Shown here: in pieces, positions 8,764 through 55,917 of the stretch
How positions within the stretch are numbered: position 1 is the stretch's first letter
Layout: each line of letters begins with the position of its first letter
DNA from: Boseongicola aestuarii
Lineage (GTDB): Bacteria > Pseudomonadota > Alphaproteobacteria > Rhodobacterales > Rhodobacteraceae
NCBI RefSeq assembly: GCF_900184815.1
Contig: NZ_FXXQ01000002.1
Coordinates: 124,001 to 188,000, forward strand
Length of the DNA: 64,000 bases
Reading direction: 5' to 3'
The notes under the pieces: generated by a model
Told to the model about the DNA's origin: nothing
Seen by the model: only the letters and a program-made list of their open reading frames with translations
Database searches by the model: none
Translations under genes and position numbers: made by a program

Positions 8764-9807
8764 ATGGGTCTATTCATCCTTCGCCGATTAGGCGTGATGA
8801 TACTGACGGCACTCTGCCTGACGTTCATCGTCTTCTTCCTGACGAACCTCTATCCGAACCTTGAAAAGCTTGCCAAAACGCAAGGCAACCAAAGGATGTC
8901 GGACGAGGCCGTGACCTCCTATCTTGGGAAAAACGGCTATCTCCAACCACTTCCGGTGAAATACGGACAATGGCTTGGAGTGCTGCCGGGTCACACCTTC
9001 ACAGATGACGAGGGCAAGATCACCGGCCGCTGCATCAAGCGCGGCATGGAGCCAGCCGACGCTCCAACATTCTGCGGCATCCTGCAAGGCGACTGGGGAC
9101 AATCGACCGTCTTCAAGGCCGATGTGGGTGAAATCGTCTCGACCCGCCTTGGCCTCACCGGATGGCTGATGCTGTTCGTGATGCTGCTTATGGTCCCCTC
9201 GGCCCTGATCGTCGGCGTGCTTGCGGGCATGCGCGAAGGCTCGAAACTGGACCGCTCACTCTCGACCTTCTCAATCGCCTCGACCGCCACCCCGGAATAT
9301 GTGTCGGGCGTGATCTTCATCACGCTGTTCGCCTCCTCGGCTGGTGTGAAATGGTTCAAAGGCACGGCCACCTCGGCGGCCGACGACATCACATTCGAAA
9401 ACTTCTTCCTGCCCGTCCTCACTATTGCCCTTTACGGCATGGGCTACATCGCGCGTATGACCCGCGCGTCGATGACCGAAGTGATGACAGCACAATACAT
9501 CCGTACCGCGCGCCTGAAAGGCGTGAGCTTTCCAAACATCGTCATGAAGCACGCGCTCAGAAACGCCCTGATCGCACCCTTCACGGTAATCATGCTTCAG
9601 TTCCCATGGCTTTTGAACGGCGTCGTCATCGTTGAGACGCTGTTCAACTACAAAGGCTTTGGCTGGACGCTGGTGCAAGCCGCTGGCAACAACGACATCG
9701 AGCTTCTGCTCGCCTGTTCCGTCGTTGCCGTCTTCGTCGTTCTGATCACGCAGCTGATATCCGACATCGGCTATGTGTTCCTGAACCCACGCATTCGTAT
9801 CGCTTAA
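8764..9807 (+). CDS. Peptide-type ABC transporter permease (DppB-like)
   Basis: This 347-residue inner-membrane protein belongs to the BPD_transp_1 family. It opens with the typical FILRRLGVMILTALCLTFIVFF helix. A periplasmic loop of about 90 residues contains four-residue hallmarks such as the GDWGQS segment. Further helices and the EAA loop (YIRTARLKGVSFPNIVMKHALRNA, about 240-265) follow. It pairs with the next permease to form the translocation channel. The spacing to the next gene is 15 bases and includes a strong GGAGG ribosome-binding site. Confidence 0.92.
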   Translation: MGLFILRRLGVMILTALCLTFIVFFLTNLYPNLEKLAKTQGNQRMSDEAVTSYLGKNGYLQPLPVKYGQWLGVLPGHTFTDDEGKITGRCIKRGMEPADAPTFCGILQGDWGQSTVFKADVGEIVSTRLGLTGWLMLFVMLLMVPSALIVGVLAGMREGSKLDRSLSTFSIASTATPEYVSGVIFITLFASSAGVKWFKGTATSAADDITFENFFLPVLTIALYGMGYIARMTRASMTEVMTAQYIRTARLKGVSFPNIVMKHALRNALIAPFTVIMLQFPWLLNGVVIVETLFNYKGFGWTLVQAAGNNDIELLLACSVVAVFVVLITQLISDIGYVFLNPRIRIA

Positions 9808-30319: not shown

Positions 30320-32266
30320 ATGGCCCAGATTTCCCTTACCCTTCCTGATGGCAATTCGCGCGTATACGACGCCGGCATAACAGCCGCCGAAGTCGCTGCC
30401 GACATTTCGACCTCGCTTGCCAAGAAGGCCATCAGCGCAACTGTGAACGGCGCGCATTTCGACCTTCAGTGGGCGATTGAAGCGGACGCCGACATCGCGA
30501 TCCATACGATGAAGGATGACGACCAGGCACTTGAGTTGATCCGCCATGACATCGCGCACATCATGGCGCGTGCGGTGCAGTCGATCTGGCCCGACGTCAA
30601 GGTCACGATTGGCCCCGTCATCGAAAATGGCTGGTACTACGACTTCGACCGGGCCGAACCATTCACGCCGGAAGACCTCGGCGCGATCGAAGCCAAGATG
30701 AAGGACATCATCAATGCACGTGACCCGGTCCGAACTGAAGTCTGGGACCGCGCGCGCGCGGTGCAGCACTACACCGACAATAACGAACCCTTCAAAGTCG
30801 AACTGATCGACGCCATTCCGGGCGATGAACCTCTGCGCATGTATTGGCACGGTGACTGGCAGGATCTTTGCCGCGGCCCGCATCTGCAACACACCGGGCA
30901 AGTCCCCGCGGATGCGTTCAAATTGATGAATGTTGCCGGCGCCTATTGGCGCGGCGACAGCGACCGCGCCATGCTTCAGCGCATCTACGGCGTCGCCTTC
31001 AAGAACCGCGATGATCTGAAACAGCATCTTCACATGTTGGAAGAAGCCGCCAAACGCGATCATCGTCGCCTCGGCCGTGAGATGGACCTCTTCCACATGC
31101 AGGAAGAAGCCCCCGGTCAGATATTCTGGCACCCGAACGGCTGGACCATCTACACCGCGCTTCAGGACTATATGCGCCGCAAACAACGCGCGGGCGGCTA
31201 CGTCGAGGTGAACACCCCTCAGGTCGTTAACCGCCGCCTTTGGGAGGAATCCGGCCACTGGGAAAACTACCAGGAACACATGTTCATCGTCGAAGTCGAC
31301 GAGGATCACGCGCGCGAAAAATCAGTGAACGCGCTCAAGCCGATGAACTGCCCCTGCCACGTTCAAATCTACAATCAGGGACTGAAAAGCTACCGGGACT
31401 TGCCTTTGCGCATGGCGGAATTCGGATCCTGCAGTCGTTATGAACCCTCCGGGGCACTTCACGGCATAATGCGCGTCCGGGGCTTTACCCAGGACGATGC
31501 TCATATTTTCTGCCGCGAAGATCAGATCGAAGAAGAATGCGCGCGCTTCATCGACTTCCTCTCCGACGTTTATTCGGATCTCGGGTTCGAGAAATTCGAG
31601 ATCATGTTTGCGACCCGTCCTGAAAAACGTGTCGGAACCGAGGAAAGCTGGGATAAAATGGAAGACGCGTTGGAGAACGCGATCAAGAAAACGGGTCATT
31701 CCTACACCCTCGACCCCGGAGAAGGCGCGTTTTATGCCCCCAAGCTTGATTTTAAACTAACCGATGCAATCGGTCGTGTTTGGCAGTGCGGAACATTTCA
31801 GGTCGATCCCAACCTGCCCGAACGTCTCGGCGCTCACTACGTGGCCGAGGACGGCGACAAGCACCGCCCTTACATGTTGCATCGGGCCTGCCTTGGTTCG
31901 TTTGAACGCTTCATTGGCATTTTGATCGAAAATTACGCGGGCCGTCTGCCGCTTTGGCTTGCGCCACGTCAGGTGGTTGTGGCCTCGATCGTTTCGGATG
32001 CGGACGATTACGTGCGTGAAACGGTTGCGGCGTTGCGCGCGGCGGGGCTTCGTGCAGAAGCGGATACGCGCAACGAAAAGATAAACTACAAGATCCGCGA
32101 GCACTCCGTCGGCAAAGTTCCGGTGATCTTGGCCGTGGGACAGCGTGAAGTCGCAGAGAATACGGTCTCGGTTCGCCGACTTGGCGACAAACAGACCTCG
32201 GTTCGACCTCGTGAAGACGTTCTGGCGGATCTCAAGGCCGAAGCAACGCCACCCGATCTCGCCTAA
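30320..32266 (+). CDS. thrS: Threonyl-tRNA synthetase
   Basis: This 648-residue enzyme charges tRNA-Thr. The order is an N-terminal TGS domain (1-62), the editing domain with the zinc-like [12 protein letters not shown] and [12 protein letters not shown] motifs near 75-115, the class II catalytic core ([13 protein letters not shown] near 340, [31 protein letters not shown] near 370-400, [17 protein letters not shown] near 520) and the anticodon-binding domain (about 540-640). The ATG at 30320 gives the standard N-terminus [10 protein letters not shown]. The last bases overlap the stop of the convergent GGDEF-EAL gene. Confidence 0.97.
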
Positions 32267-34350
32267 GCGCGATCGGCCAGCCCACGTTCGGCACCTAATC
32301 GGGGCACGCGTGCCTTGTTTGCCGGCGGAAGGTCGTCCAGGGTTGGCAGTGAGTACGTAGCATCCGCAAGCGCCTCGGCCGCAGCAATTGGCTTGCCGAA
32401 CAGATAACCTTGCCCCACCTTGCACCCCAACCGGTGCAAAAAGCTGCGCTGTTCTTCGCGTTCAATGCCCTCGACAACAACCTCAAGCCTCAGACTATCC
32501 GCAAGGTCCAGCACGGCATCCAGAATGAAGCGCGCTTCTTCCGAGCCTTCGATTTCGTCGATCAGCGATTTGTCGATCTTCAGTTCATCGGCCGAAATGG
32601 TCTTGAGGTAAATAAGAGAGGAGTACCCAGTTCCGAAATCATCAATGGAAATCTTGCATCCGAGCGCCTTCAGACCTGTCACAATCTCTTGCGCGATATC
32701 CCACCTCGAAAGTTGCACGGTTTCCGTGATCTCCAGCGTCAGAAACTCCGGTTCGAATCCGTGTCGTTGCAACGCGTCACTTACGAATGGCAGCCCATCA
32801 CGACTGACGAAATGACTGCCTGACAGATTGACGCTGACGCCGAACGAGGTGCGATGCCGACGGTTCCAATCCGCCATGATCCCGACCGCGCGATCAAGCA
32901 CAAAGGCGTCAATCTCGCAGATCCGATTACTGTCTTCCGCAACAGATATGAACTGAGCCGGATTGAACAGCACCCCGTTGCGCCACCAGCGCACCAGCGC
33001 CTCGAAGCCGATAACCTCGCCGGTTCCGATAAGAACTTTGGGTTGCAGAAAGACTTCAAGTTCGTCGTTCTCAAGTGCTTTCGGCAGGTCTTCCAAAAGG
33101 GTGCGGCGTTCATCCATCTGCCGTTCGAGATCTGCATCATAGAGAGTCACCCGCCCGCGTCCGGCAGCTTTGGAGGCATAGAGTGCGAAATCAGCGACGC
33201 GCATCAGCTGATCATAGCCGCTGTAGATCGAGGCAGACACCTGCGTGGTCGTGGTCAAGCCGATGCTGACTCCAGAAATGACCCGCGTGCCAGCGAACTC
33301 CAACGGCTCCGCGCACAGACTAAGCAGCGACTGACAAAAACCCAACAGGAAGTCCGTGTCATCCGTCGGCATGAATACCGCAAATTCATCACCACCCAGA
33401 CGTGCCGCGATACCGCCTGTGACTTCAGCCTCGTCGCGAATAGCACGCGCCATCTGCTTCAAAACTGCGTCACCCGCCGCGTGTCCGTGACGATCATTGA
33501 TCTCCTTGAAACTGTCGAGGTCGATCAAGATCAGCGCGCCTCTTGCTTTCGGCCCAAGGAACTCGTCGACCTTGTCCTGAAACTGCACCCTGTTGGCCAG
33601 TCCGGTCAGCGCGTCAAAATACGCCAGTCGGTCCGCACGGCTTTCCGCTTTTTCGCGTTCCTTACGCGCCAGAACTTCAAGTCGTAACAGATGTAGGCTT
33701 ACAGCTCCTGCCAGCGTGACAATCGCCAGGAACACCAGGGTGGCGCGACTTAGAAAAAGGACCTTTTCCGTTTGCGAGGACATAAGCGCAGACTTCAATC
33801 GGGTGGAGCGCTGCAAATATTGAAACGAGGCTTTCCTCGCTGTCTCGATCGCTTGAATCAATTCCGGAGCTCTCAATGCGGCTATCGGATCCGGCGCGAC
33901 AAGTGCCTCATCCATCAGAGCAACAAGCGCTTCAATCGCGATGACCGTCGTCGTACCGTCTCCGATCAGTCCCTCGCCCTGGCCTGTCTTTGCATAGAGC
34001 GTGCTGGATGCACCCGCTTCAAGCCGTCTCGTGATATGATCCGCCCGCACATACAACGCATCGATCGCCGACTGTATTTCCGAAAAGTCGGCGTCCGACG
34101 CTTCGTTTTTCTCCAGAGCCGACAGAAGCTGGCCATTCAAACGCGCAATCTGGTTAAGCGCAGACTGGCTCCCGGTCGCCTGGTGCCTTTCGATTTCTTC
34201 CTGAACGGTCAGAATCGACTCCGCCGATCTGCGAAACTCCGTTGCAACAAGAAAGGTGAAGGCTGCGAGCGACGCCATGGCAATCCAGAACCCGCGCTTT
34301 GTCGCTAGCGCGTGCAATCGCGGAGGACCGGTTTTTTCCTTGAAGGGCAT
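32263..34350 (-). CDS. Membrane GGDEF-EAL cyclic-di-GMP protein
   Basis: This 695-residue protein makes and/or degrades cyclic di-GMP. Two membrane helices (about 15-35 and 203-228) flank a periplasmic helical sensor region of about 165 residues. The GGDEF domain has an intact [11 protein letters not shown] near 318, and the EAL domain has GFEALVRWW near 447 and [13 protein letters not shown] near 570, so both active sites look intact. It starts 2 bases after the stop of a secreted SUOX-fold-like protein, so the pair is an operon. This suggests the secreted protein feeds a signal to the periplasmic domain, which is inference. Confidence 0.93.
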
Positions 34351-34352
34351 TT

Positions 34353-34865
34353 CTAGCGCGACGCCTCAATACGCATAGCCATCCAAACGAGATGCGACTC
34401 GTCGAAAGCGTCACTGTCCGTCATATCCTGCTCGGCTATTACAAACTGAATGGGCCCCCGCGCACGACGCGAATGCGCCTCACCGTCCACGCGCGTTGCA
34501 ATAAGGATCGGAGCCGTCGTCATCGCGCGGCGGTCAAATGTCGCCGTAAACTCATTTTCAGCAGTCACAACGATCACGGACGCCGACAACAAATCATGGC
34601 GCGCCAAGACATCGGACAACAAAACGCCCGAGAAAAGCGCCGGCTGGTCACGCCAGGGCGTTCTCGTTTCAATCTCATATGTCGGAAACTCTTCAAGCTG
34701 TGCCGGAGAATAAACGGTCGACTGGCCATCCAATCCGATCACTTCAAGTGATGCAACGGCATGGTCGACTTCGGGTAGAACCACTCTTTTCGGCTCCGCC
34801 ATCGCCGTCATTCCACCAAAGGCCAGCAAGAAAACTGCAACACAACTGATGCGCAAGGATGTCAT
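34353..34865 (-). CDS. Secreted SUOX-fold-like (oxidoreductase molybdopterin type) protein
   Basis: This 170-residue protein has a signal peptide (MTSLRISCVAVFLLAFGGMTAMA, about 23 residues). The mature part resembles the core of molybdopterin-binding oxidoreductases: YSPAQLEEFPTYEIETRTPW, FSGVLLSDVLARHDLL and VVTAENEFTATF are typical. The cysteine that would bind the molybdenum cofactor is absent, so it is probably a ligand-binding, not catalytic, domain. Paired genes of this kind next to GGDEF proteins are found in other Proteobacteria. It lies directly before the GGDEF-EAL gene. The 270 bases upstream are AT-rich and hold no gene. Confidence 0.78.
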   Translation of the reverse strand: MTSLRISCVAVFLLAFGGMTAMAEPKRVVLPEVDHAVASLEVIGLDGQSTVYSPAQLEEFPTYEIETRTPWRDQPALFSGVLLSDVLARHDLLSASVIVVTAENEFTATFDRRAMTTAPILIATRVDGEAHSRRARGPIQFVIAEQDMTDSDAFDESHLVWMAMRIEASR

Positions 34866-35136
34866 CGGGGCCTCTCGAGGTTGATTACGAACCTCAGGCT
34901 AACGCACCAACCCCTAACAACACCCTGCTCGCAAATATCTGATATATATACAATTTTAGCCGCCTTTTGTTAAATTTCGGGCGACTTTCGTCAACCTTCG
35001 CTGAATGTTTCAATCCATAACGAGCGCGTCAAACACGCAGCCGTGAGTGGAATGTTAGCCAGACAGTTGCTTTCTGTAGGACAGCCGCAAAATGGCGGTC
35101 CGATATTAAGAAAACCAACACGAGGAAACTGAACTT

Positions 35137-35442
35137 ATGTCTAACGCTACAAAATCCATCGCCGTCGCTGGCGCCGTCGCTGCTGCTCTTGCTGCCTCGC
35201 TGTCCGCACCAGCTCACGCACAAGCCAAGGAAAAATGCTTCGGTGTTTCGCTCGCCGGTCAAAACGATTGTGCCGCTGGCCCAGGCACCACATGTGCTGG
35301 CTCTTCGGTTGTCGACTATCAGGGCAACGCCTGGACGCTGGTTGACGCCGGCACATGCGCCGACATCGAGCTGCCAGCAATGGCCGACGGTTCCGAGCGC
35401 ATGGGCTCGCTGGAAGCGCTCGATCGCGACCTGCCAGCATAA
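35137..35442 (+). CDS. bufA: Bufferin-type precursor peptide (DUF2282)
   Basis: This 101-residue protein is a DUF2282 member, a family recently shown to be copper-binding modified peptides called bufferins. It has an N-terminal signal peptide ending in APAHAQA (about residues 1-29). Four cysteines stand at 34, 45, 53 and 74 in the segments [24 protein letters not shown] and AGTCADIE. In studied bufferins the central cysteines are turned into thiooxazole rings by the partner MNIO enzyme while the others form a disulfide. The acidic tail after Cys74 ends [12 protein letters not shown]. The next gene is that enzyme, and a hairpin separates the two. Confidence 0.92.
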
Positions 35443-35458
35443 GCTGACCCACACGACC

Positions 35459-35485
35459 GACGCCCCCGCAATTGACGGGGGCGTC
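35459..35485 (+). terminator. Hairpin between the precursor and enzyme genes
   Basis: A perfect 10-bp GC-rich stem (GACGCCCCCG with CGGGGGCGTC) closes a 7-base loop, 16 bases after the bufA stop and 23 bases before bufB. No long T-run follows. It probably works as partial terminator or as a 3' stabiliser, giving much more precursor than enzyme, as is usual in RiPP operons. Confidence 0.8.
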
Positions 35486-35508
35486 ACCTTTAGCCGAGGC
35501 TGTGATCC

Positions 35509-36369
35509 ATGTTCGACGAAAATCCGAAACCCATTGATCGCCTGCCAAATGCCCCTGGCGTTGGCTATAAACCTCAGCATTTCGCCGACATAACGAACGA
35601 CCCGGGCGTCGTCGGCTGGCTGGAAATTCACGCTGAAAACTATATGGGAGACGGCGGTCGGCCGCTTGCGCAGCTTCGCCATCTTGCCGAGACCTTTGCC
35701 ATGTCCGCGCATGGCGTGGGCCTGTCGATCGGCGGCGAAACCCGCCTTGATCCGGACCACCTCAAGCGCCTGAAACACCTGAACGACTGGCTGAAGCCCG
35801 CCAGCTTCTCCGAGCATCTTGCATGGTCCACGCACGGCGCCGAGTTCCTCAACGACCTCCTGCCCCTGCCCTATACCGAAGCGACCGTCACCCGCGTCGC
35901 CGACCATGTGGATGAACTACAAGAGACCATCGGGCGCAAAGTGCTGCTCGAAAATCCGTCCTCCTATCTGGCCTTCACCGAAAGCACGATGTCCGAAACG
36001 GATTTCCTGCGAGAGATCGCCCGACGCACCGGCTGTGGACTGCTTTTGGACGTCAACAATGTCTTCGTCTCGGCCACGAACCTCGACACGGACCCCATCG
36101 CCTACATCGACGATTTCCCTCTCGATCATGTGGGCGAAATTCACCTCGGCGGTCACGACGAAGACGAAGACGACCACGGCGCACCCCTGCTGATCGACAG
36201 CCATGGCCGCGAGGTCGCAGACCCGGTCTGGGCGCTCTATGACTATGTCATCGCCAAAGGCGGCGTACGTCCGACGCTGATCGAATGGGACAACGACGTC
36301 CCCGACTGGCCTACGCTTGAAGCCGAAGCACAGCGCGCACAGGCGATTCTGCAGAAAGCCGTCGCGTGA
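35509..36369 (+). CDS. bufB: MNIO (DUF692) multinuclear iron oxidase, bufferin-modifying enzyme
   Basis: This 286-residue TIM-barrel enzyme belongs to the DUF692 family, now known as multinuclear non-heme iron-dependent oxidases that oxidise cysteines in ribosomal peptides. Metal-ligand-rich strands are visible: [12 protein letters not shown] (about 42-53), [11 protein letters not shown] (65-75), [10 protein letters not shown] (105-114), LLENPSSYL (146-154), [13 protein letters not shown] (180-192), EIHLGGH (212-218), LIDSHG and [11 protein letters not shown] (near 260-270). These carry the conserved His, Glu, Asp and Asn residues of the family. The ATG at 35509 lies after the hairpin. The next gene overlaps its stop, so this enzyme and its partner are coupled. 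Confidence 0.94.
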
Positions 36370-37115
36370 ACGTCGATCAGGATACCTTCCGGCAGGCGCT
36401 TCTCGACCCCAAGGCCCCCCGCCCGACTGGATTGTCAGATGGCCACGGCCTTGAGGCCGGCAGGCGCTTCGACGTCTACCGCAACAACGTCACAGTGTCC
36501 CTCGCCGAAGCCCTCGAAACAGCCTTCCCAACCATCGCCAAACTGGTCGGCGCGCAGAACTTCAAACTCCTTGCCACCTCGTACCTGCGGCAATACCCGC
36601 CAACATCGCCTTTGATGATGTTCTACGGCAAGGACATGCCCGCGTTTATTCAGACCTTCGAACCCACGAAATCCATCGGCTACCTCCCCGATATCGCCCG
36701 TTTGGAATTGGCCCTGCGTCACAGCTACCACGCAGCGGACGCCACACCGCTCGACCCAGCCATTCTACAATCCACGCCACCTGACACCCTGATGGCGTCA
36801 AAACCCACCCTTGCCCCGGCGACCCGGCTGATCCGCTCAAAATGGCCAATCCATGCGATCTGGGCCTTCAACACCCTGCCCGGCGCCCCAAAGCCGACAA
36901 TGGCCGCACAGGACACGCTGATCCTGCGCCCCGACCTTGACCCCGAACCCCATCTGCTTCCGCCAGGCGGAGGCGCCTTCGTCGCCGCGCTTCTCGACGA
37001 AACCACCCTCGCAAACGCCATCGAGGCTGCCACCACAGAAGACCCTGCCTTCGATCTTTCCGCGATGCTGGCCCTTCTGATCACCAACAACGCCCTCACC
37101 GACCTTAAGGACTGA
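36366..37115 (+). CDS. bufC: DUF2063 partner protein (bufferin recognition subunit)
   Basis: This 249-residue soluble protein belongs to the DUF2063 family, which in characterised systems partners the MNIO enzyme and helps recognise the precursor. The N-terminal helical domain has the signature [31 protein letters not shown] (about 31-61). A later part with [11 protein letters not shown] and [19 protein letters not shown] fits the C-terminal region of the family. A GTG start overlaps the bufB stop by GTGA, indicating translational coupling. It has no signal peptide, so modification takes place in the cytoplasm before export. Confidence 0.9.
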
Positions 37116-37119
37116 CCCC

Positions 37120-37692
37120 ATGATCCGCGCCCTGACCTCGCTCCACGATACGGTTGTCTCTGGCCTCGAACGGATCACCGTGCCCGTCATGACTACACTC
37201 GCCCGGTTCATCTTTGCCGCGACACTGCTGGTCTACTACTGGAACTCGGGCGCGACGAAACTGGGTGACGGGGTGCTTGGTTTCCTCTTCCCCTCCGACG
37301 GCGCCTACATCCAGATCTTTCCAAGAACCATCGAAGCCATCGGCTATGACTTCTCGCAACTCGGCGCGTTCCACTGGGCCGTGGTCACCGCGGGCACATG
37401 GGCCGAATTCGTCCTGCCGCTTCTCATCGTCCTCGGCCTGTTCACCCGCCTCGCCGCCTTCGGCATGATCGGCTTCGTCGTGGTGCAAAGCTGGGTTGAC
37501 CTCTTCGGCCACGGAGGCCTGGCAAACGGCACCTTGGGCGCATGGTTCGACCGCATGCCCGACAGCCTGATCCTCGACCAACGCGCCTTCTGGGTGTTCG
37601 TCCTCGCCTACCTCGTCCTGCGCGGCGGCGGCCCCCTCTCCGTCGACCGCGTCCTCAAGGGCAGCACTTCGCCACGCCAAGCCACCACCTAG
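37120..37692 (+). CDS. DoxX family membrane protein of the bufferin operon
   Basis: This 190-residue protein has four hydrophobic helices (about residues 24-48, 80-112, 118-140 and 150-168) and the DoxX-type pattern FVLPLLIVLGLFTRLAAFGMIGFVVVQSWVDLFGHGG. DoxX proteins often accompany DUF692/DUF2063 genes and are the usual fourth member of bufferin operons (sometimes called bufD). They are thought to act as a membrane redox partner, but the exact role is unsettled. It starts 5 bases after the DUF2063 stop. Its stop shares bases with the stop of the convergent ArsC-like gene. Confidence 0.9.
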   Translation: MIRALTSLHDTVVSGLERITVPVMTTLARFIFAATLLVYYWNSGATKLGDGVLGFLFPSDGAYIQIFPRTIEAIGYDFSQLGAFHWAVVTAGTWAEFVLPLLIVLGLFTRLAAFGMIGFVVVQSWVDLFGHGGLANGTLGAWFDRMPDSLILDQRAFWVFVLAYLVLRGGGPLSVDRVLKGSTSPRQATT

Positions 37693-49036: not shown

Positions 49037-51103
49037 CTACCGCCGCCCCTCGCGAAGCCACCCGGCCACCGCCAGAAGCGACGCCAGCAATAGCAAAGCC
49101 CAGGCCGGCAATAGCGGTGACACGCGGACATCCGCCGTCACATAAGCTTCGCGTGGTGTAATCCCGATCCAGCCACGCCCCGCAGCGACCCGGCCTTCCC
49201 GCACCTCACGAATATCCGGGACACCATCGCGCAAGAACCGAACGCCCCCTCGCGTGGCCGCCACAACCGGCTCCAGAACCGCCCCACTCGCAATCGTCTC
49301 TTCAAACTCCCGCGGCGCTGACGGTCCCAACGCAATCACCGCCTCCTGATCGCCCTCGACCAGGCGATAAAGCCCAATTTCCGGCCCTTCAAACGTCGCC
49401 TCGAACCGCCCCGGAGAGACCTCCTCCAATGGCACCAAGACCACCGCCCCATCCGGCCCGGTGATCTCCACCGGCGCCACGTCTTCCCCCAAAGTCCGGC
49501 GCGTCACGACCATGGTCTGCCCTTCAGCCGCCACGCTCAGCGCCTCTTCCTCAAGGTCTGGCTCTTTCATCATCCAATGCGCCAGACGCCGCAGCAATTC
49601 CAACTGCGGCCCGCCCCCATCATACCCCCGCGACCAAAGCCAGGCATGATCCGACGCCAACAGCGCCACGCGCCCCTCGCCCACGCGGTCCAACACCAGC
49701 AAAGGCCGCTCATCCACGCCCGACATCACCGACGCACCCCGTTCCGGAATGACATCCACAATCCGCAACCACCGCCCCCAGGGCGGCCCGTCGCCCGCCA
49801 CTTCTGGTTGAAACCCTTCCGTCACCGGATGGCGCTGCCCGATCTCCGTCACGGTCGGCAAATAGGCCTCCTCCAGCACCCGACCCGAAGGAGACGCTGG
49901 AATGATCTCCGCCAGCGGCGAGCGATAAATCGAATCCGCCCCCGCAAAATCCGGCCCCGCAGCAATCAGCAAAGCGCCCCCGTCCTCTACATAGCGGCGA
50001 ATGTTATCGAGATAGATCGACGGCAAAATGCCCCGCCGCTTATAGCGGTCGAAAATTATCAGATCGAACTCATCGACTTTATCGAGAAACAACTCCCGCG
50101 TCGGAAAAGCAATGAGTGACAACTCATTGACTGGCACCCCGTCCTGCTTTTCAGGCGGGCGCAAAATCGTGAAATGCACCAGATCGACTGAAGCATCCGA
50201 CTTCAGCAGGTTCCGCCATGTTCGTTCGCCCGCATGAGGCTCGCCCGACACCAACAACACCCGAAGACGATCCCGCACCCCGTTGATCTGCACCACGGCC
50301 GCGTTATTGCGCGCGGTCAGCTCACCTGGCTGCTCGGGCAGGTTGAACTGAATGACATTCATCCCCCCATGCTCCAAAGTGACCGGCAACTCCAGATCCT
50401 CACCAATCGGCACATTGAAAAGCTGAGGCTCGCCGCCATCCACCGAGATCTCCAGTTCCGCCCGCTCCGGCAATCCAACTGGCACCACCCCTTGATCCTC
50501 GATCCGCAACGTCAGCGTCACCGGCTCGTCCAGAATCGCAAACGCCGGCGCATTCTGCACCATCAACCGACGATCCCAATCCGTCTCGCGCCCCGTCAAC
50601 AAGGCATGCAATGGCGCGGGCAAATCGGGCGCGCGCTCCACATCATGCAACTGCCCGTCGCTCAACAAGATCGCCCCCGCCAGCCGAGACCGCGGTTCTT
50701 CCGCCATGGCATTCGCCAAGGCCTCCATCAGCAAAGTGCCCTGATTGCCCTCGCTGTCCCCCAAAGTGACAACCCGCAACTCCACATTGTCCAGCCGCGC
50801 AATCTCCGCCTCGATCCCGGCAATCGCCTCCGCCACCTGCGCGGGGCGATCCGAAATCCCCTGACTGGAGCTTTCATCCACCACCAACAGCACAACATCG
50901 CTCAGCGCCTCGCGGTCCTCGACCTGCAACGACGGATTGGCGAGTGCCAAGACCAACACCGCAAACGCCAGCCCGCGCAGCCACCAGCCCGAAAGTCCGC
51001 GCCACACCGCGACGCCCACAAACAACACCGCCAGAATCGCTCCCGCCAAAACCGAAGGCCATGGCAGCAGCGGGTCAAAAATGATCGTCCCCGTCTCCAT
51101 CAC
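49037..51103 (-). CDS. Large membrane protein of the MoxR/DUF4159 cluster
   Basis: This 688-residue protein has membrane helices near its N-terminus (about 15-35 and 40-58) and at the C-terminus (about 662-684). Between them is a long periplasmic region with a von Willebrand-like start (VVLLVVDESSSQG near 68-80 has a DxSxS-like pattern) and a later glutamine-amidotransferase-like part (FDLIIFDRYKRRGILPSIYLDNIRRYVEDGGALLIAAGPDFAG, near 345-390). It matches the proteins often annotated as membrane protein or glutamine amidotransferase at the end of MoxR-DUF58-DUF4159 clusters. The role is unknown. A spacer of 160 bases with a structured RNA precedes it. Confidence 0.82.
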   Translation of the reverse strand: MMETGTIIFDPLLPWPSVLAGAILAVLFVGVAVWRGLSGWWLRGLAFAVLVLALANPSLQVEDREALSDVVLLVVDESSSQGISDRPAQVAEAIAGIEAEIARLDNVELRVVTLGDSEGNQGTLLMEALANAMAEEPRSRLAGAILLSDGQLHDVERAPDLPAPLHALLTGRETDWDRRLMVQNAPAFAILDEPVTLTLRIEDQGVVPVGLPERAELEISVDGGEPQLFNVPIGEDLELPVTLEHGGMNVIQFNLPEQPGELTARNNAAVVQINGVRDRLRVLLVSGEPHAGERTWRNLLKSDASVDLVHFTILRPPEKQDGVPVNELSLIAFPTRELFLDKVDEFDLIIFDRYKRRGILPSIYLDNIRRYVEDGGALLIAAGPDFAGADSIYRSPLAEIIPASPSGRVLEEAYLPTVTEIGQRHPVTEGFQPEVAGDGPPWGRWLRIVDVIPERGASVMSGVDERPLLVLDRVGEGRVALLASDHAWLWSRGYDGGGPQLELLRRLAHWMMKEPDLEEEALSVAAEGQTMVVTRRTLGEDVAPVEITGPDGAVVLVPLEEVSPGRFEATFEGPEIGLYRLVEGDQEAVIALGPSAPREFEETIASGAVLEPVVAATRGGVRFLRDGVPDIREVREGRVAAGRGWIGITPREAYVTADVRVSPLLPAWALLLLASLLAVAGWLREGRR

Positions 51104-51120
51104 AGACCTTCTTCTTGGCT

Positions 51121-51226
51121 AAAAAATATTGGTGGAGTGCGAGGGGCCTTTCGGCGATTGCAGGCAACCGCCTGCCGGCAACACATTGCTGTGCGATGTG
51201 TGAGAGGCAAAGCCCCCTCGCCCACC
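51121..51226 (-). ncRNA. Structured multi-branch RNA or complex terminator
   Basis: On the minus strand, outer arms GGTGG/CCACC (51222-51226 with 51131-51135) and GGCGAGGGG/CCCCTCGC-type (51214-51221 with 51039-equivalent 51139-51146) enclose two further hairpins: one of 8 bp with one wobble (51181-51188 with 51194-51201) and one of 6 bp (GCAGGC/GCCTGC, 51160-51175). AATATTTTTT follows immediately at 51130-51121. The whole forms a three-way junction with a U-tail. It lies between two same-strand genes. It is not a tRNA because no T-loop or acceptor end fits. It may be a terminator, a riboswitch-like leader or a small RNA. Confidence 0.5.
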
Positions 51227-51263
51227 GCGTTTGCAAAGCAAGCGCAATATGTCTCATGCACAC

Positions 51264-54035
51264 TCACTGCCCCAACCGATCCAGCAAAGCAGGCACATGC
51301 ACCTGATCCGACTTATAATTCCCGGTCAGCACATGCATGATCAGATTCACGCCAAATCGATAGGCAATCTCGCGCTGCCGCTCTCCGGCAAACCCGCGCC
51401 CCACCGGATATATCGGCGCGCCCACCGCATCCATCGCCCAGGCCGCCGCCCAGTCGTTGCCGCCAATAATCACCGGAGTCACATTGTCATTGAGATTGCG
51501 AAACGGCATTCCGTCCGCCCGCTCCGCATCCGCCGGTGAGGCTTCAACCCAGACATCCCGGCTGGCATAACGCCCCGGAAAATCCTGCAACAAATAAAAC
51601 GTCCGCGTCAGAACATGGTCGCCGGGGATCTGCTCCAATGGCGGCACATCCAGCGGCAAAGCCAACTCGCGCAGCTTCCGCTCATTCGGGCTCGATCCCC
51701 CAAATTGCGCCGTATCCGCATCCCGCGTATCAAACAGGATCATCCCGCCCGTGCGCAAATAGCGATTGAGCTTGGCATAAGCCTCCGACGAAGGACGCGG
51801 CTGATCTGGCGTGATCGCCCAATACAAGAACGGATAAACCGACAATTCATCCGTCTCCAAATTCACAGCCGTCGGGTCCGTCGGCTCGATCGAGGTTCGA
51901 CGAAACAACACATTCGACAAGCCTCTCAACCCCGCACTCGAGGTCGCATCCACCCGTCCGTTGCCTGTCACTACATACCCCAAAGACAACTCCGACGCCG
52001 CAAACAAGGACTTCTCAATATCCTCAACCGTCTCTTGCGCTTGCGCCTCGGGCGCCCCCATCAACAGCGCCGCAACCAACACTACAGCCGCCTGCGCCCG
52101 TGGCCCCGTCAACTTCCCCGATAACCAAAGCGAGGCCAGAATATCAACCATCAGTGCAAGCATCCCCAAGGTCAGAACCAGCCCCTTAAGAGGCGTCTCC
52201 CGCGTCACCGCCAACCCTTCAACCGGCACGTCCGCAGGCCAGACCACGCGCTCCAACATGTCATCAGCCCCGATCACATTCCGCGCAATCCGCCTGTCCT
52301 CGCCCGCATAAAGCCCCGGCGGCAAATCCGCACTCAAAGCCCCTTGCGCCAAGTCCTCGCCCCGAACGCCCGCCAAAGCGCCTGCGTCTTCAATCTGGCC
52401 CGTCGCCGTCAAAACCTGATCCGGCGTCCAGACCGTACCGGCCAAATCCTCCGCCGTCACAGCCGCCGGCGTCGACGACACGGCCAAACGCTCCAACATC
52501 TGCACGAACAACCCTGACAAGGGCAACGTCGACCACTCCGCATTCGCCGTCACATGGAACAAAACGACCTGCCCGGCGTCCAAACGCTTCCTCGTCACCA
52601 AAGGCGTGCCATCGCTCAAAGCAGCAATCGTGCGCGAGGCCAGAGACGGGTCCGGCTGCGCCATCACCTGCGCAGACACCACCACGTCATCCGGCACCGC
52701 CAATCCAAAAAACGGGCTCTCCGGCAAAAATGCCCGAAGCGCCTTCGGCTCGCCCCATGACATCGCGCCACCCACATTGCGCCCTCCCGCGCGCAAGCGC
52801 ACCGGCATCAGGATGTCTTCCACGTCCCGCCCAATATCCGACGCCGCAACACGCGGCCCGGCAAAGCGCACCAGAATCCCCCCACCCCGCACCCATCCTT
52901 CAAGGTCCGACGCCTCGCTCTCTGCCAAAGTCGCGATATCGGCCAGAACGATCACATCCGGGTTCGCCAAAACGATATCCGACAGATCACCCTCGATGAG
53001 GTCCGCATTCGGCAACAAAGCCTGCTCCAAGTAATGCGTCGGCGTCAAAAGCTGCAAACCCTCGCGTTCATCGCGCGCCGCCAGCAAGGCCACCTCGCGC
53101 CGCCGCAACGCATCATCCGTCAGGCTCACCGCTCCCGCCGAGCGCTGCCCCGACAATTCGAACCGAGTGATCCGGTTGCGCAACTCCGGCGGCAAGGACA
53201 AAGCCAAAGACGCTACAGGCTCGCCATCGCCAAACTCAAACGTCCCGCTCGTCAACTGCCGAGGCGTGCCCGCCGGATCAAGCCCATGCCCAATCACAGT
53301 GACTTCCGAAGCCCCCGTCGTCCGACTGCGCACCGCCTCCAAAGCAATCGCGCCGTCTGCAAACCGCGCTGGCCGCAGCCCAAACACAGGCCGCTGCGCC
53401 TCAAACACCGAAACCGCGCCTGCGCTCTGCAAAGCGGTCAAAAGCCCGTCGCGCCACGAGTAATCCAACCCATCCGACACCCAAAACGTATCAAACCCGG
53501 CTCCCAAATCATCGGCCCAGCCAAGAACCACATCCGCATCCGGCGCCCAGGCTGCAGGCTCCAAACCGGGCAACTCGGAAACCCATGCATCCGCCGACCG
53601 GAATGGCACGTCGCCTGCCGGAATATCCGTCAACACAATGACAGCCGTCTCGCGCCCGGCCTGCAAAGCCTCGCCAAGAACCATGTCCACCCGCTCAATC
53701 CGCCGCGTCCAGTCCGACGCCCCGGCCCAGGTGCCATCCATCAACACCAATAGCGGCCCATCGCCCCCGGTGCGATCCTGAGGATTCAACACCGGCCCCG
53801 CAAAACCGATAATTGCTGCCGCCACGGCCAAAGTCCGTAGCAACAACAACCACCACGGCGTGCGATCCGTTTGCGTTTCGTCGTCCGTCAGCCCTAGCAG
53901 CAACGCCACACCTGGAAACCGCCGCCGGATCGGCGCTGGCGGCACCGCGCGCAGCAAAATCCAGAGGATCGGCAAGGCGATCAACCCCAGCAGCAACCAT
54001 GGCGCGCTAAATCCTATGGGCCCAATGCTCCACAT
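51264..54035 (-). CDS. DUF4159 membrane protein with BatA-type N-terminus
   Basis: This 923-residue membrane protein opens with a BatA-type domain (WSIGPIGFSAPWLLLGLIALPILWILLRAVPPAP, two helices within about the first 80 residues). A long periplasmic part includes a von Willebrand-like region (PLLVLMDGTWAGASDWTRRI near 95-115). A helix near 655-680 precedes the cytoplasmic or periplasmic DUF4159 domain at the end (LRTGGMILFDTRDADTAQFGG near 800, then the ALP-rich part). The start at 54035 overlaps the stop of the DUF58 gene by one base, indicating coupling. These clusters are linked to surface or chaperone functions in other bacteria, but the role here is unknown. Confidence 0.88.
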   Translation of the reverse strand: MWSIGPIGFSAPWLLLGLIALPILWILLRAVPPAPIRRRFPGVALLLGLTDDETQTDRTPWWLLLLRTLAVAAAIIGFAGPVLNPQDRTGGDGPLLVLMDGTWAGASDWTRRIERVDMVLGEALQAGRETAVIVLTDIPAGDVPFRSADAWVSELPGLEPAAWAPDADVVLGWADDLGAGFDTFWVSDGLDYSWRDGLLTALQSAGAVSVFEAQRPVFGLRPARFADGAIALEAVRSRTTGASEVTVIGHGLDPAGTPRQLTSGTFEFGDGEPVASLALSLPPELRNRITRFELSGQRSAGAVSLTDDALRRREVALLAARDEREGLQLLTPTHYLEQALLPNADLIEGDLSDIVLANPDVIVLADIATLAESEASDLEGWVRGGGILVRFAGPRVAASDIGRDVEDILMPVRLRAGGRNVGGAMSWGEPKALRAFLPESPFFGLAVPDDVVVSAQVMAQPDPSLASRTIAALSDGTPLVTRKRLDAGQVVLFHVTANAEWSTLPLSGLFVQMLERLAVSSTPAAVTAEDLAGTVWTPDQVLTATGQIEDAGALAGVRGEDLAQGALSADLPPGLYAGEDRRIARNVIGADDMLERVVWPADVPVEGLAVTRETPLKGLVLTLGMLALMVDILASLWLSGKLTGPRAQAAVVLVAALLMGAPEAQAQETVEDIEKSLFAASELSLGYVVTGNGRVDATSSAGLRGLSNVLFRRTSIEPTDPTAVNLETDELSVYPFLYWAITPDQPRPSSEAYAKLNRYLRTGGMILFDTRDADTAQFGGSSPNERKLRELALPLDVPPLEQIPGDHVLTRTFYLLQDFPGRYASRDVWVEASPADAERADGMPFRNLNDNVTPVIIGGNDWAAAWAMDAVGAPIYPVGRGFAGERQREIAYRFGVNLIMHVLTGNYKSDQVHVPALLDRLGQ

Positions 54036-54913
54036 CAGTGCACCCGCTCCAACGCCCCATAAAGCCACAACAAGGCCGCCGAGGCCGACGCATCCGTGTG
54101 ATGGCAATGAAATTGCCACCCTGTCGCACGGCACAACGACTGCAACTCATCCTTGCGCGCCGCCAACCGCTGCAAATAGCGATCCCGCAAATCGCCCGCC
54201 TTCAACGTCTCATGTGCCAAAGTCCCGCCAACACTCTCAAAGATCGTGCGCCCATCAAACGGAAACGCCTCTTCCTGAGGATCCAGAACCTGCACCAATG
54301 CACCATCAACGCCCCGATCCGCGGCCCGCGTCAAGGCCGCCTTCACAGGACCGATATCGCCCAGGAAATCCGATACGAACACCGCCCGCGACCGCGCAGG
54401 CACCCCCCGCAACTCCGGCGCAATATACTCCGCCGCCTCGGCGCTCTCCGCCAAAGACGCCGTCAACCGCATCAACTGCACCTGTCCCGAACGCGGTGGC
54501 AACCCCGCGTTGGTCAACCCAACCCGCTCGCCGCCCCGGATCAGCAAAACCGCCATCGCCAGCGACAACACCCGGGCGCGATCCGCTTTCGTCGGCAGTG
54601 CCTTATCGCTGGAAAATTCCATCGACTGCCCGGTATCCAGCCAGATCATCACCGACTGCGCCGCCTGCCATTCCTTCTCGCGCACAAACAAGCCGTCATC
54701 CGACCGGGCCGAACGCCGCCAGTCAATCGACCGCGCTTCATCACCCGCATGGCTGGGCCGATACTGCCAGAACTGATCGCCCTGTCCCACGCGCCGCCGC
54801 CCATGCTCGCCAGCCATCACCGAAGACGCCAAATGCTCCGCCGCCGCCAAAAGCGGAGGCAACGGACCTGCAAGGGTCTCGGCGTCCTGCCTTAAGCGGG
54901 GCGCTTGTCTCAC
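54035..54913 (-). CDS. DUF58 domain protein
   Basis: This 292-residue protein has the DUF58 pattern: GEHGRRRVGQGDQFWQYRPSHAGDEARSIDWRRSARSDDGLFVREKEW (about 35-82) with its RxxxGxGxEF and DIDWRxSAR-like elements, and a von Willebrand-like part with IWLDTGQSMEF near 90-100. It lacks a membrane anchor at the start. DUF58 proteins are the usual partners of MoxR ATPases, which here overlaps it by four bases upstream. The two genes downstream in the same strand form one cluster with it. Confidence 0.9.
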   Translation of the reverse strand: MRQAPRLRQDAETLAGPLPPLLAAAEHLASSVMAGEHGRRRVGQGDQFWQYRPSHAGDEARSIDWRRSARSDDGLFVREKEWQAAQSVMIWLDTGQSMEFSSDKALPTKADRARVLSLAMAVLLIRGGERVGLTNAGLPPRSGQVQLMRLTASLAESAEAAEYIAPELRGVPARSRAVFVSDFLGDIGPVKAALTRAADRGVDGALVQVLDPQEEAFPFDGRTIFESVGGTLAHETLKAGDLRDRYLQRLAARKDELQSLCRATGWQFHCHHTDASASAALLWLYGALERVH

Positions 54914-55917
54914 GCGGCAGCCTCAGTCCGGGTCACAACCTCGGTCACCTGAGAAATCACGGTGTTCAACTCCATGCCCCGCGCCCGCGCCGCAAAGGTC
55001 AGCGCCATACGGTGCGTCAGAACCGGCGTCGCCATCGCGGCCACATCCTCAATGGAAGGCACCAATCGCCCTTCCAGCAACGCACGCGCCCGCACCGTCA
55101 GCATCAACGCCTGCGCCGCGCGTGGCCCCGGCCCCCAACCGACATTCTCGCGCACGATATCGCTCGCGCCCGGCTCGTCAGGGCGACACGCCCGCACCAG
55201 ATCAAGGATCATCTCGACCACGGCTTCACCCACCGGCATCCGCCGCACCAGGCTTTGCGCGGCCATCAACTCCTCGGGCGAGAATACTCGCGTCGACTGC
55301 GCTTCACCGGCCCCCGTCGTCGCCATCAGGATATCCCGCTCGGTGTCGCGATCCGGATAAGGCACATCAATCTGTACCAAAAACCGGTCCAACTGCGCTT
55401 CCGGCAAGGGATAGGTCCCCTCCTGCTCAATCGGGTTCTGCGTCGCCAACACATGAAACGGAGCCGGCAAATCATGCGGCACACCGGCCACCGTCACCGA
55501 TTTCTCCTGCATCGCCTGCAACAAGGCCGACTGCGTCCTCGGAGACGCCCGGTTCACCTCGTCCGCCATCAACAACTGACAGAAAATCGGCCCCTTGATG
55601 AACTTGAACGCGCGTGACCCATCCGCCCCCGTCTCCAGCACTTCCGACCCCAGAATATCGGCCGGCATCAAATCCGGCGTGAACTGCACCCGCTTGCCAT
55701 CCAGTCCCAGAACCGTCGACAGCGTATCCACCAGCCGCGTCTTTCCGAGCCCCGGCAAACCGACCAGCAACCCATGCCCGCCACACAAGATCGCGCTCAA
55801 CACAAGATCGACCACCCGTTCCTGTCCAATGAACCGATGGGTTATGCTCGCCTTCGCTTCGGCCAGCTTTCCACCAAGCGTTTCGATCTCGGCGACAAGG
55901 TCCGGGGTTTCACTCAT
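54910..55917 (-). CDS. MoxR family AAA+ ATPase
   Basis: This 335-residue ATPase has Walker A GLPGLGKTRL near 55-64, Walker B LLMADEVNRASPRTQSALLQAMQE near 114-137 (the MoxR-type ADEVNRA), sensor-1 VLATQNPIEQEGTYPLPEAQLDRF near 155-175 and an arginine-finger region. MoxR proteins are chaperone-like ATPases that help assemble or insert metals into partner complexes, typically with VWA-containing proteins such as those encoded downstream. It is the first gene of the minus-strand cluster and is divergent from the DUF1285 gene. Confidence 0.94.
   Translation of the reverse strand: MSETPDLVAEIETLGGKLAEAKASITHRFIGQERVVDLVLSAILCGGHGLLVGLPGLGKTRLVDTLSTVLGLDGKRVQFTPDLMPADILGSEVLETGADGSRAFKFIKGPIFCQLLMADEVNRASPRTQSALLQAMQEKSVTVAGVPHDLPAPFHVLATQNPIEQEGTYPLPEAQLDRFLVQIDVPYPDRDTERDILMATTGAGEAQSTRVFSPEELMAAQSLVRRMPVGEAVVEMILDLVRACRPDEPGASDIVRENVGWGPGPRAAQALMLTVRARALLEGRLVPSIEDVAAMATPVLTHRMALTFAARARGMELNTVISQVTEVVTRTEAAA

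Follow-up and report, generated by a model that had tools for sequence, protein, structure and literature searches.

A complete Buf1-type bufferin operon in Boseongicola aestuarii with a conserved control region that appears to work without sigma-F/NrsF

The window (the whole stretch of DNA analysed, 64,000 nucleotides) contains four adjacent open reading frames on the forward strand between positions 35137 and 37692, identified from the list of open reading frames and their translations. They encode a precursor peptide (BufA), an MNIO enzyme (BufB), a DUF2063 partner protein (BufC) and a DoxX membrane protein (BufD). The GTG start codon of bufC overlaps the TGA stop codon of bufB in the sequence GTGA. 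All four proteins match their Pfam families above the gathering cut-offs, and the genome holds one gene each for DUF2282 and MNIO. Bufferins form a large family of RiPPs that was recognised only recently. An earlier note, made from the sequence alone, had assigned these genes to it; when the reading frames were re-read, the gene coordinates, the gene order and the GTGA overlap it gave proved correct, and its four precursor cysteines lie exactly where it had placed them. Every feature of that assignment that can be tested by sequence is present, namely a Buf1/DUF2282 precursor together with MNIO, DUF2063 and DoxX proteins, the set that forms the core of a bufferin cluster (PMC12452194). The features of the locus are listed in Table 1.

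Table 1. Genes and control features of the bufferin locus (positions in the window).
Feature	Description	Position	Strand	Basis or remark
Tandem element	15-bp element in tandem, TAACGAGCGCGTCAAACACGCAGCCGTGA	35018-35046	+	followed by GTGG to 35050; candidate regulator binding site
-10 hexamer position	TTCTGT, weak	35072-35077	+	comparison with relatives
5' hairpin	at the predicted mRNA 5' end	35079-35101	+	z = -2.7; position kept in relatives
bufA	DUF2282 bufferin precursor, 101 aa	35137-35442	+	PF10048, E = 1.5e-23; cysteine spacing
bufA-bufB GC hairpin	GACGCCCCCG-CAATTGA-CGGGGGCGTC	35459-35485	+	66-nt region, z = -2.9
bufB	MNIO bufferin maturase, 286 aa	35509-36369	+	PF05114 (MbnB_TglH_ChrH), E = 3e-102; MNIO_BufB
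bufC	DUF2063 partner protein, 249 aa	36366-37115	+	PF09836, E = 1e-22
bufD	DoxX membrane protein, 190 aa	37120-37692	+	PF07681, E = 5e-8

A search of the precursor against DUF2282, which the earlier note had suggested, returned PF10048 with 83 bits (cut-off 22.4). BufA has a conserved hydrophobic N terminus with an AxA-like site, which suggests a signal peptide with a putative cleavage site near A28 (between APAHA and Q), judging by eye and by conservation. Its cysteines, Cys34, Cys45, Cys53 and Cys74, follow an 11-8-21 spacing that is common to all precursors in ~170 loci: 111 of 111 in the first set (where two rows repeat the window's own gene and the signal peptide of six contains an additional cysteine) and 60 of 60 in the second set. 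The EGKCG motif is absent from the translated precursor. Buf1 bufferins are defined as DUF2282 precursors with four cysteines; the central pair is modified, and a disulphide joins the outer pair (Antoine et al., PMC12452194). By analogy with the characterised bufferins, Cys45 and Cys53 of this copy would be converted to thiooxazoles and the product would bind copper. A second bufA-like coding sequence lies immediately 5' of bufA at three Tropicimonas- or Aliiruegeria-type loci (L049, L107 and L195). In a plasmid collection, DUF2282 relatives occur in 247 records (60 from Escherichia and 17 from Klebsiella among them), and 109 of the 247 are predicted to be conjugative. No relative of BufA was found in viral contigs.

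BufB scores 371 bits against the NCBIfam model MNIO_BufB, over its cut-off of 310; its scores against PRK05409 (the HvfB family; 230 bits, cut-off 360) and the methanobactin MbnB model (51 bits, cut-off 325) are under the cut-offs. The comparison with MNIO structures proposed in the earlier note showed BufB to be similar to 3BWW, which is described as closely related to HvfB (PMC13419390). Three residues essential in HvfB, N175, D242 and H244 (PMC13419390), correspond in the alignment to 3BWW to N184, D230 and H232 of BufB, which are invariant in all 111 BufB sequences compared. BufC and BufD are also recognised by the HvfC and HvfX models, but with scores under the NCBI equivalog cut-offs, and no solved structure matches BufC by sequence. 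This operon is a complete, ordinary Buf1-type bufferin operon of a known family, whose protein chemistry is not new.

The novelty appears to lie in the control region. The Caulobacter bufferin operon is transcribed from a sigma-F promoter, GTAACC-N16-CGAA (PMC3511200). Among the loci that we compared, those with sigF and nrsF have a promoter of the Caulobacter type ~75-105 nt 5' of bufA, with GTAAC-N15-19-CGAA in 13 of 17. No GTAAC-N16-CGAA promoter precedes bufA in the window (locus L001). As the earlier note had remarked, no sigma factor or regulator gene adjoins the operon; NrsF is also absent from the genome as a whole (99.96% complete), and the ECF sigma factors found there include no close relative of sigma-F, the best full-length identity being ~28%, compared with 42-66% among the sigma-F orthologues compared (sigma genes adjoining NrsF). 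No sigma-F encoded elsewhere in this genome was found. The note's guess that control here differs from that of the sigma-F copies was borne out across the Rhodobacteraceae loci. With one genome taken per genus, DUF2282 occurs in 214 of 298 Rhodobacteraceae genera, and comparison of the lists places NrsF over its cut-off in 33 of these 214 genomes, leaving 181 without it. The sigF label changes at least six times on a BufB tree, which alone cannot separate gain from loss. Since several genera (L044, L047, L051, L073 and L074) have sigF-nrsF at one and the same thrS locus, and since it is found in Caulobacter, we read this pattern as repeated loss.

Loci that lack the sigma factor instead have TNACGNNNNYGTGANNCACGNNNNYGTGANTGG, a tandem element with the general pattern TNACG-N4-YGTGA-N2-CACG-N4-YGTGA, in most cases 105-130 nt 5' of bufA. 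Its form in the window, including the terminal GTGG, is TAACGAGCGCGTCAAACACGCAGCCGTGAGTGG (35018-35050), and it is kept in congeners. In a set of 61 loci whose sequences upstream of bufA share less than 60% identity with one another, the mean pairwise identity of the element is 0.64, against 0.27-0.33 for its flanks. The matrix built from the first set was then tested out of sample on 60 additional loci (a single one from each genus), 53 of which are not near-copies of the first set. With a score above 15 counted as an element (the maximum in shuffles was 12), it was found in 39 of 49 loci with no sigF in the fetched DNA and in 0 of 4 sigF loci; 34 of the 39 lie beside thrS. About a fifth of the independent sigma-less loci (10/49) have no recognisable element. 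At most sigma-F promoters, one unit of the element is located a few nucleotides before the -35 region, which suggests that control is partly common to both kinds of promoter.

Genome-wide, the full pattern is matched best at buf, with one mismatch, and the other listed matches have two or three; 15 matches are listed in total, versus 8 for a reversed control pattern. We searched the genome for the regulator and its regulon using both the full element and a single palindrome. The remaining matches examined fall within coding DNA (rpsD), close to a recombinase gene or next to genes that are unrelated, and hence no regulator could be named.

A consensus scan found no sigma-70 promoter in the window, and its weak -10 hexamer is visible by comparison only. 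A TANNNT hexamer is located at element offset +54 in 34 of 61 loci, and matches to a -35 hexamer are poor in the loci compared. The 5' hairpin starts at about offset 62-69, near the expected transcription start, in most of the 61 loci. It is found in 27 of 38 independent loci, compared with 21% of shuffles, and its stem sequences vary between genera. The hairpin between bufA and bufB is GC-rich and occurs with both promoter types: a stem of at least 7 pairs is found in 93 of 100 loci, and one of at least 8 pairs in 48 of 52 independent loci (14% of shuffles). In the window it is not followed by a U tract. Neither hairpin matches a known RNA family in Rfam. We propose that the second hairpin protects the mRNA or causes partial termination that favours the precursor.

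The nearest named relatives, which include Ruegeria, Roseovarius, Leisingera and Silicimonas, have the order thrS, bufABCD, an arsC-like gene and csp, nearly always in the same place. In these relatives the buf operon looks like an inherited core locus. The distance from bufD to the arsC-like gene is ~380 nt in many of them (L033-L112); in the window the stop codons abut. The sequence CTGTAACA is frequent ~220-270 nt 5' of bufA (47/80 loci) and is perhaps linked to the end of thrS. The window and its congeners have an insert of two genes between thrS and bufA (32263-34865, reverse strand): a GGDEF-EAL gene and a molybdopterin-domain gene, whose product is a small secreted protein that matches molybdopterin oxidoreductases weakly. 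Among the loci compared, the insert is confined to the window's genus. We do not regard the molybdopterin-domain gene as part of the operon because it is encoded on the other strand, its Pfam score is under the cut-off and it occurs in this genus only among those loci. Elsewhere in the window, positions 9384-9562 (reverse strand) match the Ruegeria cis52 sRNA (Rfam RF02647, 116.8 bits), antisense to a predicted ABC-transporter permease gene. Positions 49037-55917 (reverse strand) encode a MoxR-type ATPase, a BatA/DUF4159 protein and a glutamine-amidotransferase-like protein, an aerotolerance-type cluster.

In characterised relatives, BufBC form thiooxazoles, and the exported product sequesters periplasmic copper (PMC12452194, PMC13097082). 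On this model, BufA would be made with a Sec signal peptide, and a cytoplasmic BufB-BufC complex would oxidise Cys45 and Cys53 to 5-thiooxazoles. The modified peptide would then be exported, a disulphide would form between Cys34 and Cys74, and the product would sequester excess periplasmic copper, with BufD in a putative accessory role. The housekeeping RNA polymerase probably transcribes the operon without sigma-F/NrsF, probably with the help of a candidate DNA-binding regulator whose site would be the tandem element, immediately 5' of the -35 region, and copper would be the presumed signal. Both hairpins, at the mRNA 5' end and between bufA and bufB, probably serve to protect or process the transcript, which would yield more precursor than enzyme. 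We put the probability of this explanation as a whole (a Buf1 operon for copper buffering by thiooxazoles, with a sigma-F-independent activated promoter and mRNA hairpins) at roughly 0.8. A more specific scenario seems to us evenly balanced. It holds that sigma-F/NrsF was repeatedly lost in the family and that a single dedicated metal- or redox-sensing factor acts instead on the tandem TCACG-N4-CGTGA, also aiding the sigma-F promoters of relatives through the single unit, while the two mRNA hairpins set the ratio of precursor to enzyme.

The evidence bears unevenly on other readings. It is improbable that the same bufferin chemistry serves another metal or stress (chromium, cadmium, gold or oxidants) as both signal and cargo, with copper incidental: the sigma-F of Caulobacter does respond to chromium and cadmium (PMC3511200), and roles beyond copper are expected for bufferins (PMC12452194), but the characterised ones bind copper and protect against it (PMC12452194). 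The tandem element could also be the operator of a repressor, or the site of a general regulator that does not sense metals, in which case the operon would be derepressed or tuned rather than activated. Palindromic half-sites of the type TCACG-N4-CGTGA would also suit a repressor, the genome search named no regulator, and single units adjoin sigma-F promoters too. However, the element is located 5' of the inferred -35 to +1 region and not over it, and the poor -35 matches are usual for activated promoters, both of which count against a repressor; the near-restriction of the full element to buf in this genome counts against a general regulator. We thus consider control of this kind a serious but somewhat unlikely alternative to activation.

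It is very improbable that the element and the hairpins are part of the adjacent thrS gene, or that they reflect shared ancestry and not function. The thrS neighbourhood is indeed common to most loci, but the flanks have drifted much further than the element. Furthermore, the two-gene insert parts thrS from bufA in the window's genus and the element has stayed with bufA, and five independent sigma-less loci with no thrS match in the fetched DNA also have it.

In the literature examined, the sigma-F promoter is the only form of bufferin control described in detail. A search found no paper on bufferin control in roseobacters, and the conserved sigma-independent control region appears to be undescribed there, although absence from the literature searched is not proof. 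A sharply defined DNA element now marks the sigma-less promoters in a family where 181 of 214 DUF2282 genera have no NrsF. Through the control region it becomes directly testable how a need for bufferin is sensed in these bacteria, and the 29-bp element is a concrete bait to find the regulator and the signal. The conserved hairpin 3' of the precursor gene might explain the dosing of precursor versus enzymes, a possibility that can be tested.

Compared with known systems, methanobactin biosynthesis (MbnB/MbnC) shares with this operon the MNIO superfamily and a copper-related product, but its precursor lacks a signal peptide, its product contains oxazolone/thioamide groups (PMC12452194, PMC13097082) and MbnB has much lower similarity to BufB. 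Oxazolin (HvfABC) and fontiphorin, which are captophorins of the EGKCG type, also pair an MNIO with a DUF2063 partner and carry 5-thiooxazoles on cysteines (PMC13097082); the residues essential in HvfB are kept in BufB. The oxazolin and fontiphorin precursors, however, contain EGKCG repeats instead of DUF2282, and BufB falls under the HvfB-family cut-off. The Caulobacter bufferin 1 operon (CC3254-CC3257, sigma-F regulon) has the same four-cysteine DUF2282 precursor, MNIO, DUF2063 and DoxX genes in one operon. It is controlled by sigma-F/NrsF (PMC3511200), whereas the present operon has the tandem element and a genome without either protein. The sigma-F/NrsF loci of the same family (e.g. L044, L047 and L074) share the genes, the thrS neighbourhood and the bufA-bufB hairpin. 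These loci keep sigF, nrsF and the sigma-F promoter, where the CACNNNNNCGTGA unit occurs once, while sigma-less loci such as that of the window have two units and a -10 hexamer of the TANNNT type.
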